Positions 10,121 through 23,406 of a stretch of DNA of 33,918 bases are shown here, in pieces (the first letter of the stretch is position 1; each line of letters opens with the position of its first letter). Source of the stretch: Candidatus Adlerbacteria bacterium (GTDB taxonomy: Bacteria; Patescibacteriota; Minisyncoccia; Phycocordibacterales; SBAW01); the NCBI GenBank assembly GCA_903878285.1, contig CAIRHB010000016.1:1-33918 (forward strand). Direction: 5' to 3'. A program made the translations under genes and the position numbers. Under the pieces are notes generated by a model. It was not told the DNA's origin. It made no database searches and saw only the letters and a program-made list of their open reading frames with translations.

Positions 10121-10240
10121 TTCTGTTAGAGTCTTCCAAGACGTCTCGTGCGGGACTGCTGCAGCAGAACTGTAACTGGCTGCAGCATACCTGAAAATCG
10201 TATGAAAAGTCCACTGCTATCACCAAACAGTGTTATCTGG

Positions 10241-10246
10241 TATAGT
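10241..10246 (+). promoter_or_regulatory. Extended -10 (TGG TATAGT) of ileS
   Basis: Exactly 6 nt upstream of ATG 10253. Confidence 0.6.
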
Positions 10247-10252
10247 TCTTTC

Positions 10253-13200
10253 ATGGACAGCAAGACGGAGGGTGGGGAAGAATTGAATCCAGTGGTGCAG
10301 AAGCCAAAAGGTGCGTTTGCACTGCGCGAGGAGGAGGTGTTGGACTTTTGGAACAAGGAGAAGATTTTTGAAAAGACGCTGGAGAAGAAGGCACCCAAAG
10401 GCGAGTATGTGTTTTATGACGGCCCGCCGTTTGCGACTGGCTTGCCACACTACGGCCACCTACTCCAGAGCGCGCTCAAGGACGCGATCCCGCGCTACAA
10501 GACGATGCAAGGCTACCGTGTGTCACGACAGTGGGGGTGGGATTGCCATGGCCTGCCACTCGAGAATCAGATCGAGCAGGAGCTGGGATTTAAAACCAAG
10601 CGTGACATCGAGCAGTATGGGATCGAGAAGTTTAATGCTGCGGCAAAGAATGCCGTGCTGCGCTACGCTGCCGACTGGCGACGCATCATCCCGCGCGTTG
10701 GGCGCTGGGCGGACATGGAGCACGACTACAAGACGATGGACGCAACCTACACCGAGTCGGTCTGGTGGGCGTTTAAGACACTCTACGACAAAGGGCTGAT
10801 TTATGAAGGGTTTAAAGCGATGCACCTGTGTCCGCGCTGCGGGACGACGCTGTCGAACTTCGAGGTCGCGCAGGGCTATCAAGATATCGACGACCACGCG
10901 GTGACGGTCAAACTGCCGCTCGTTGATGAGCCAGAGACAGCACTGCTCATTTGGACAACGACGCCGTGGACATTGCCGGGCAACTCGGCTGCTGCGGTCA
11001 ACGCAGGTGCAACCTATGTCAAAGTGCGCACCGACGAGGGCTTTGTGATTGTTGCCAAAGAACTGATGCGCAAGGTGCTCGGCGAACATGCGCAGGTATT
11101 TGGCGAAATCCTTGGCAAGGAGTTGGTCGGGCAGCGCTACGAGCCGCCGTTTGCTTATTTCAAAGATCTGGTACACAAGCACAAAACGCATGCATGGAAG
11201 GTGTATGCGGCGCCGTATGTCACGCTCGAGGATGGCACCGGCATTGTCCACCTCGCACCCGCCTACGGCGCCGAGGATTTGGAATTGGCACAAAAAGAAA
11301 AGATTCCGCTCATCCACCACGTCACCGATGACGGCAAGTTTGTCGCCGCGGTCACCGATTTCGCGGGGCTGCCAGTCAAGCCGAAAGGTCGACATATGGA
11401 GACCGATGTGAAGGTGATCGAACTCCTACGCGCAAAAGGGCTGCTCTTTAAAGATGAAAAGATCAAGCACTCCTACCCGCACTGCTGGCGCTGCGACACG
11501 CCGCTGCTCAACTGGGCTGCCAACTCCTGGTTTGTCAAAGTGTCGGCACTGAAGTCGCAACTCTTGCGAGAGAATAAAAAAGTAACGTGGGTGCCAGGCC
11601 ACGTGGGGCAGGGGCGCTTCGCGAAGCTAATCGAGAGCGCGCCAGACTGGGCAATCTCACGCAGCCGCTATTGGGGCGCGCCGATTCCTGTCTGGCGACA
11701 CTCCAAAACAAAAGAGATCAAAGTGATCGGCTCGGTCGCCGACCTGCTCCCTTTGGTGCGCCGCTCGGGCAACCGCTACTTCGTGATGCGCCACGGCGAG
11801 GCAGAGCAAAACACGCTCGGCATCATCAGCTCGAGTATTGAGAAGCAGTACGCACTCACCGAAAAGGGGAGGGACGTGGCACGTGAGGCGGCAGAGAAAT
11901 TAAAAGCAGCTGGCACCAAGATCGATATGATCTGCGTCTCGCCACTCTTGCGCACACAGCAAACCGCAAAAATCGCAGCTGACATTCTTGGTGTTTCGCC
12001 GGACAGAATTTTCGTTGATGAGCGTTTGCGCGAGATGATCTTCGGCGAACTTGAGGAGCATACAGTAGCAGAACATAAAGCGCTCTACAGCAACTCCGCT
12101 GAAACACTCTCAGATAAACCAGAAGGAGGTGAAAGTGCGATGGAGGTCAAGCGTCGTGTTGGTGCATTTCTATTCGAGTTGGAGTCTCGATACCCAAATA
12201 AAAATATTCTGATTGTTTCGCATGGCAACCCGCTATGGATGCTTGCGGCAGCTGCCGATGGTGCTACAAAAGAGCGTACGTGGGAGTTGTACAAAACCGC
12301 CTACCCACACAAAGGGCGTATCACCGAGTTGCCCTTCGCGCCGTACCCGCACAACGACGACTACGAGCTCGACCTGCACCGCCCGTACATCGACGACCTC
12401 TCGCTTGGCAACTCGATCGCGGGCGAGTGGCAGCGCGTGCCCGACGTCTTCGACTGCTGGTTCGAGTCGGGCTCGATGCCCTTTGCGTCGCATCACTATC
12501 CGTTCGACAAGACGGTGTTTAATCCCAAACGTTTCCTCGGCCTCTTTCCGAAAGGGTTTCCCGCTGGGTTTATCGCCGAGGGGATTGATCAAACCCGTGG
12601 CTGGTTTTACTCGATGATCGTGCTCGGGGTGGGGCTGTTTGGCCACACGCCCTACAAGGCGGTCGTGACCAACGGCATGATACTCGCCGAGGACGGCCGC
12701 AAGATGAGCAAAAAGCTCAAGAACTATCCCGACCCGATGGACGTGGTCGACCAGTTTGGCGCGGATGCGCTGCGCTACTATATCCTCTCGTCGCCTGTGA
12801 TTCGCGGCGAGGACTTACGCTTTGCGGCACGCGGTGTCGAGGAGGTATCTAAAAAATTGCTGATGCGTCTTGATAACGTGCGGAGTTTTTATGATTTGTA
12901 CGCACCTGCGCAGCAACCAACCGATGTCGCGTCGCCGGAAACTCTCTCGCAAAAGTCCTCAGCGGCTCCCAGACTATTTGCTCGAGAGTTATCGGCTTCG
13001 CTTTCGATACATCCGCTCGACCGCTGGATTCTTTCGCGACTCAATGAGTTGGTGCGCGATGCGACACAGGGCTACGAGACGTACGAGCTCGACCTCGCGA
13101 CGCGGCCGCTGGCAGGATTCATTGACGACCTCTCGACCTGGTACCTGCGCCGATCGCGCGACCGGTTTAAAACTGACAGCGCTGCTCCCGCTTCGCATCT

Positions 13201-13921
13201 GGCAGATAAAGATGCTGCGCTCGCGACACTGCGCCAGGTGCTACTGACGGTGTCGAAAGTGATGGCACCGGCGATGCCGTTCTTTGCCGACGACCTCTAC
13301 CGCCGACTGCGCGCCGAGAGTGACCCCGAGAGCGTGCACCTCGCCGACTGGCCAGTGGCGGGCGCAATCGACACAGCACTGCTTGCCGACATGCAGCGCG
13401 TGCGCGATATCTCGTCGCGCGGGCTCGAGCTGCGCGAAAAGGCGGGGATCAAAATCCGCCAACCGCTCGCCTCGCTTGCGGCAACATCCCTCCCCATCGA
13501 CCCAGCGTTGCACCAAATCATCGCCGATGAGTTGAATGTAAAACAGGTGATCGAAGCGACTCCAGTTGTATCAGATGTGCAAACCGCTGGCGGTATACAG
13601 ACCGATGATGTGTTGCTCAACATCGAGCTTACGCCTGAACTGCGCGAAGAGGGTTTGGTACGCGAACTTGTCCGTGCCGTGCAAGATGTGCGCAAGAAGA
13701 CAGGGCTCGTCATCGCCGATCATCCCACTGTGTATATCTACACCAACGCCGGGGGTAGCACCTTCTTCCAAAAAAACGCGTCGCAGATCGAGAGTCAGAC
13801 GAACGCATCTCTCGTAATCGAGCAGGGCGATGTATCCGAAGCCGTTGACGCTATCGACGGGTTGCCATTTCCACTCATGCTTTCTGTGAAGGGAGATCAT
13901 GCATCAGATCACAACAACTGA
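10253..13921 (+). CDS. ileS: Isoleucyl-tRNA synthetase with internal histidine-phosphatase domain
   Basis: GLPHYGHLL (HIGH), LIWTTTPWTLPGN, SRSRYWGAPIPVW, EDGRKMSKKLKNYPDP (KMSKS), LDRWILSRLNEL. Start moved to M36 of the ORF because of the promoter. Confidence 0.95.
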   Translation: MDSKTEGGEELNPVVQKPKGAFALREEEVLDFWNKEKIFEKTLEKKAPKGEYVFYDGPPFATGLPHYGHLLQSALKDAIPRYKTMQGYRVSRQWGWDCHGLPLENQIEQELGFKTKRDIEQYGIEKFNAAAKNAVLRYAADWRRIIPRVGRWADMEHDYKTMDATYTESVWWAFKTLYDKGLIYEGFKAMHLCPRCGTTLSNFEVAQGYQDIDDHAVTVKLPLVDEPETALLIWTTTPWTLPGNSAAAVNAGATYVKVRTDEGFVIVAKELMRKVLGEHAQVFGEILGKELVGQRYEPPFAYFKDLVHKHKTHAWKVYAAPYVTLEDGTGIVHLAPAYGAEDLELAQKEKIPLIHHVTDDGKFVAAVTDFAGLPVKPKGRHMETDVKVIELLRAKGLLFKDEKIKHSYPHCWRCDTPLLNWAANSWFVKVSALKSQLLRENKKVTWVPGHVGQGRFAKLIESAPDWAISRSRYWGAPIPVWRHSKTKEIKVIGSVADLLPLVRRSGNRYFVMRHGEAEQNTLGIISSSIEKQYALTEKGRDVAREAAEKLKAAGTKIDMICVSPLLRTQQTAKIAADILGVSPDRIFVDERLREMIFGELEEHTVAEHKALYSNSAETLSDKPEGGESAMEVKRRVGAFLFELESRYPNKNILIVSHGNPLWMLAAAADGATKERTWELYKTAYPHKGRITELPFAPYPHNDDYELDLHRPYIDDLSLGNSIAGEWQRVPDVFDCWFESGSMPFASHHYPFDKTVFNPKRFLGLFPKGFPAGFIAEGIDQTRGWFYSMIVLGVGLFGHTPYKAVVTNGMILAEDGRKMSKKLKNYPDPMDVVDQFGADALRYYILSSPVIRGEDLRFAARGVEEVSKKLLMRLDNVRSFYDLYAPAQQPTDVASPETLSQKSSAAPRLFARELSASLSIHPLDRWILSRLNELVRDATQGYETYELDLATRPLAGFIDDLSTWYLRRSRDRFKTDSAAPASHLADKDAALATLRQVLLTVSKVMAPAMPFFADDLYRRLRAESDPESVHLADWPVAGAIDTALLADMQRVRDISSRGLELREKAGIKIRQPLASLAATSLPIDPALHQIIADELNVKQVIEATPVVSDVQTAGGIQTDDVLLNIELTPELREEGLVRELVRAVQDVRKKTGLVIADHPTVYIYTNAGGSTFFQKNASQIESQTNASLVIEQGDVSEAVDAIDGLPFPLMLSVKGDHASDHNN
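11760..12350 (+). other. Histidine phosphatase (phosphoglycerate mutase-like) domain inserted in IleRS
   Basis: YFVMRHGEAEQNTLG, SPLLRTQQTAKIAADIL, DERLREMIFGELEEHT, GGESAMEVKRRV, ILIVSHGNPLWML: all catalytic blocks retained, in frame. Confidence 0.92.
12929..13001. repeat. In-frame palindromic element inside ileS
   Basis: gcgtcgccggaaactctctcgcaaaagtc ... gactatttgctcgagagttatcggcttcgc forms a stem of about 24 paired positions with a ~14-nt loop. Confidence 0.7.
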
Positions 13922-23315: not shown

Positions 23316-23342
23316 TATAAAAGGTGTCAGGTACCTTTTTTA

Positions 23343-23376
23343 CAAAAAGACCTCGGAGCACTCCGCGGTCTTTTTG
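23343..23376 (+). terminator. Intrinsic terminator after rpsR
   Basis: caaaaagacctcgg-agcact-ccgcggtctttttg hairpin with T-run. Confidence 0.88.
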
Positions 23377-23406
23377 TGTTTGCGTGGCACACTATGTGCG
23401 TTGTGC

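Follow-up and report, generated by a model that had tools for sequence, protein, structure and literature searches.

Among the known palindromes that lie in frame within conserved genes are the Rickettsia palindromic elements (RPE) and the Wolbachia palindromic elements, short insertions in small-genome bacteria that occupy solvent-exposed sites of the encoded proteins and also occur as intergenic copies (PMC3767692, PMC2229807). REP elements, with their GTAG and CGTC superfamilies, are small hairpins that often lie downstream of genes and sometimes within repair or replication genes (PMC3733652). Reports of palindromes inserted in frame have so far come chiefly from Rickettsiales and a small number of other bacteria. 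Here we describe such a palindrome in the isoleucine--tRNA ligase gene (ileS) of a Candidatus Adlerbacteria genome, within a stretch of 33,918 nucleotides referred to throughout as the window. Sequence comparison suggests, with a probability that we put at roughly 80%, that the ileS copy belongs to a family of small mobile palindromes (~63-110 nt), non-autonomous and, within the genomes searched, restricted to a single order of Patescibacteria. A search by title and abstract of the literature outside subscription journals and preprints returned no palindromes of this sort from Patescibacteria/CPR, and the family is apparently undescribed until now.

The palindrome in ileS

The locus is composed of the following features.

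10148..13921, + strand: host gene ileS, isoleucine--tRNA ligase (ORF and TIGR00392; start codon not settled)
12929..13001, + strand: whole palindrome, 24 bp round a 14-nt loop, translated in frame (sequence and fold)
12929..12954, + strand: left arm, GCGTCGCCGGAAACTCTCTCGCAAAA (arm comparison)
12955..12974, + strand: conserved core, GTCCTCAGCGGCTCCCAGAC (family consensus GTCCTCGG...tip...CCAGAC)
12975..13001, + strand: right arm, pairing with the left arm (arm comparison)
12933..12998, + strand: approximate 66-nt insertion relative to the sister genome G005 (start within 12926-12937, end within 12991-13002)

The 73-mer at 12929-13001 reads as earlier described, and its RNA fold contains 24 pairs and a 14-nt loop with a minimum free energy of -33 kcal/mol (z -3.7), a stability that none of 200 shuffles reached. 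It shares the reading frame of the 1257-aa ORF at 10148-13921, which NCBIfam identifies as IleRS (TIGR00392), and adds a peptide of 22 residues to this protein. Fold and ORF thereby confirm the preliminary description, which had claimed a palindrome of ~24 bp with a ~14-nt loop in frame within ileS. The same IleRS carries a histidine-phosphatase (phosphoglycerate-mutase-like) domain inserted in the synthetase body at approximately aa 542-714 of the ORF, a domain also found in the IleRS of G167 (L148). Two further near-perfect short hairpins in the window, at 984-1015 and 23342-23377, one of them with a T-run, are probably ordinary terminators.

Copies and their insertion sites

A 101-nt probe revealed another copy elsewhere in this 0.93-Mb genome, inside an RlmI/RlmK-like methyltransferase gene, where it lies in the same frame and also forms a hairpin with stem letters that differ from those in ileS; the part common to both copies is CAAAAGTCCTC(A/G)GCGGCTCCCAGAC. 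The genome also holds a copy in tsaD, and further copies occur in relatives, so that the preliminary description's proposed check for additional copies gave a positive answer. Four are present in G025, a member of the window's genus: one within tsaD, one within comF on the opposite strand, and two at the ends of genes. A larger version, with a variable tip hairpin in its centre, occurs in orthologs of tsaD and of the methyltransferase gene and is arranged as GTCCTCGG(A/G)TCTCC-tip-GGCCAGAC or GTCCTCGGGTCG-tip-CTCAACCAGAC. A gapped search pattern built on the conserved centre (GTCCTC-G...tip...CCAGAC) matched at 139 places, spread over 48 of the 296 relatives searched, a total summed from the per-genome table in which a few nested matches are counted twice, whereas the same pattern reversed yielded 7. 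A set of 379 genomes from across the phylum, of which 362 lie outside the order, gave matches beyond the order that were isolated and lacked the consensus core. The remainder of the phylum is thus almost free of the element, which is, as far as searched, confined to one Patescibacteria order. A phage origin was considered and rejected, as three patterns run against IMG/VR returned no copy and the sole match (L319) is armless and looks like chance.

Comparison with related genomes provides filled and empty versions of the same sites. In G005, the closest sequenced relative of the window genome (87% identical to it in the methyltransferase), ileS is missing exactly 66 nt and tsaD 63 nt, each the length of the core plus both arms. 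The preliminary description had also proposed looking for precise absence from orthologs, and the segment indeed has no counterpart there, most clearly in this sister species. The edges of the ileS insertion are fixed no better than the ranges listed above, an excision displaced a little from the palindrome accounts for the data about as well, and at edges that are ambiguous by several bases a target duplication is not clearly discernible. The ileS site is empty in G005, G006, G020 and G030, whereas in G011, G002, G015 and G024 it is occupied by differing palindromes. In G025, comF exceeds most of its empty orthologs in length by roughly one whole palindrome, though some relatives have linkers of intermediate length. 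The palindrome at a given linker of ileS, tsaD or the methyltransferase gene varies from species to species, and tsaD has examples in both orientations; these linkers have therefore been hit repeatedly. Judged by these filled and empty sites, the whole palindrome, both arms included, was inserted, and copies are scattered, with sister species differing in those they carry.

Some palindromes at the same linkers lack the core GTCCTCGG, namely L116 and L113 (methyltransferase of G016 and G018), L120 (G029), and L030 and L028 (ileS of G025 and G009); these apparently represent other families of in-frame palindromes. In the tsaD of G020 (L057), an in-frame 21-nt palindrome, CCTGCCTGCCGGCAGGCAGG, encoding the peptide ACLPAGR, is nested inside an element shared with G006 (L055), in which it is missing, and a similar motif occurs in the tsaD of G002 (L066).

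Of the 80 copies in the window's genus, 65 are in frame within long ORFs, in either orientation; the corresponding figure in other genera of the order is 9 of 43, and most copies there are found shortly after stop codons. Host genes include ileS, tsaD, polA, recG, recJ, dus, tgt, lepA, pnp, comF, the methyltransferase gene and others; the polA copy lies between the exonuclease and polymerase domains, and the same inter-domain linker is often occupied in different species. In an AlphaFold model of the methyltransferase, well-folded parts flank the insert, which is modelled as a loop of low confidence (pLDDT <50 at residues 135-145). Copies inside genes preserve the reading frame, and their peptide makes up an additional linker. 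Coding copies of both groups combined favour the sense strand (50 vs 24, p 0.003), an excess that stop-codon avoidance could explain. Here a separate lineage with reduced genomes bears in-frame palindromes in essential enzymes (IleRS, TsaD and DNA polymerase I), at linkers that are struck again and again across species.

Fixed centre and free stems

Complementary arms were present in 123 of the 129 distinct places that made up the sample for comparing anatomy. The median pairing score of a copy's own arms was 30, against 8 for swapped arms, and arm pairing reached 79% compared with 46% (maximum 49%) in 500 shuffles of partners, with three to four pair types at most variable arm positions. In the genus copies, pairing stops ~21 nt from the core, arm positions 2-4 are almost invariant A, and positions 11-15 and 19-21 are low in sequence information yet mostly paired, with <0.3 bits at positions 19-22 from the core. 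Tip stems compared within one genome, G014, are variable yet paired, as the arms are. Nearly all copies have their own tip and arm sequences, but complementarity is retained in both stems, and conservation is limited to the unpaired or near-loop core, a combination of stem variation and fixed non-helical letters that points to recognition of shape plus these letters. On its own, such covariation is no proof of selection on the host, since each copy may have been inserted already paired; in the tsaD of G006 and G020 arm changes are uncompensated, and the structure is therefore not clearly selected after insertion. In the methyltransferase of the window genome and G005 (L111, L112), the homologous arms differ at four neighbouring positions, and the changes affect both arms as though one had served as the template for its partner.

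This inverted conservation, in which the centre is fixed and the stems are free, gives a hint of the mode of movement. A trans-acting factor may recognise a folded single strand, of DNA or RNA, through the non-helical core, reading GTC-CTC-GG / CC-A-GAC together with the flanking A-run and T-run, and stems of any sequence would consequently be allowed while they remain paired. Copies would persist where the protein tolerates an added surface loop or where they closely follow a stop codon, and harmful copies would be lost. We tentatively suggest that these palindromes could form a class of mobile elements that are recognised by their shape, in which a putative machine reads only the non-helical centre, the stems are free, and each insertion brings a new perfect palindrome into a gene; we regard this broader proposal as doubtful at present. 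New arms might come from long-lived lineages with drifting stems or from donors outside the genome. The many filled and empty species pairs make the mechanism testable by comparison.

Alternative origins and known systems

Some observations count against a mobile palindrome, among them the uncompensated arm changes in tsaD. The arms differ between copies even at young insertions, unlike those of an ordinary copy-and-paste element, and noncoding copies hug stop codons in the sense direction, mostly beginning within tens of bases of the stop (sense 28 vs 10, hand count), a placement also compatible with a role as terminator or RNA. The palindrome could accordingly serve the host as a structured RNA or as an element resembling a terminator, selected at gene ends and spread by duplication, with the coding copies as tolerated accidents; the A-run and T-run that flank the core, and the association of variable stems with conserved non-helical bases typical of structured RNA, agree with this. 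We nevertheless consider such an origin unlikely, given the 65 of 80 genus copies within long ORFs in either orientation, a presence that is patchy even between sister species, and the lack of any Rfam family matching the palindrome. Mobilisation as a REP-like element by RAYT, an IS200-like tyrosine transposase, appears slightly less probable still: PF01797 genes are common (181 of 296 genomes) and REPs likewise occur within and downstream of genes (PMC3733652), but 50 PF01797 loci (153 kb) contained no paired cores, G014 has 7 copies and no PF01797 match, and the element has a variable stem foot in place of a fixed GTAG tag.

If the arms were instead made at insertion by backward copying of the neighbouring target (snap-back or template switching), the mobile unit would be the core only. 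Arms are unique to nearly every copy, some being perfect over 18-27 nt, and G284 and G019 share inner arms while their outer 8-15 nt are unique and paired, all of which such copying would explain. The empty ileS and tsaD sites of G005, however, are short by the core and both arms, the 22-nt arm of the G022 copy is found nowhere else in the G022 genome, and outer arms show no excess of local matches over the control; target copying is disfavoured and is, in our judgment, improbable, slightly more so than the RAYT origin. That the hairpin arose by chance in a freely diverging linker would suit the variable length of the ileS linker among orthologs, but this has a negligible likelihood in view of the precise gain between sister species and the independent copies in many genes, and it is refuted by the repeated core.

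The mobile palindrome favoured here can be set beside several known systems. It shares with MITEs a small size, non-autonomy, dispersal and inverted repeats; MITE terminal repeats, however, are conserved since they are read by the transposase, whereas the ends are the least conserved part of the Patescibacteria palindromes, which lack conserved terminal inverted repeats. Integron attC sites are recognised as a folded single strand in which the stems are free and the tip is variable, and they resemble the present element in this one respect, the folded-strand recognition being proposed here; GTTRRRY/RYYYAAC boxes are not apparent at its ends by eye, and it carries no cassettes. Like REPs, it is a small hairpin found at gene ends and inside genes, but REPs have a conserved tetranucleotide at one end and their GTAG types flank RAYT genes, whereas here the ends are variable and the 50 loci contained no RAYT neighbour. 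With RPE it has in common an in-frame palindrome in conserved protein genes, dispersed and absent from orthologs. The preliminary description had drawn an analogy with Rickettsia, which holds for the kind of element, a protein-coding palindromic one, and fails for its particulars: RPE measure 100-150 bp and most copies here 63-110 nt (63-66 nt in the window genome), RPE sequence is conserved family-wide and here only the centre is, with stems unconserved between copies, and a Rickettsia element as such is not shown. The core is unlike the tags described for RPE and REP families, RPE being set apart by description. RPE are nonetheless the nearest known kind.
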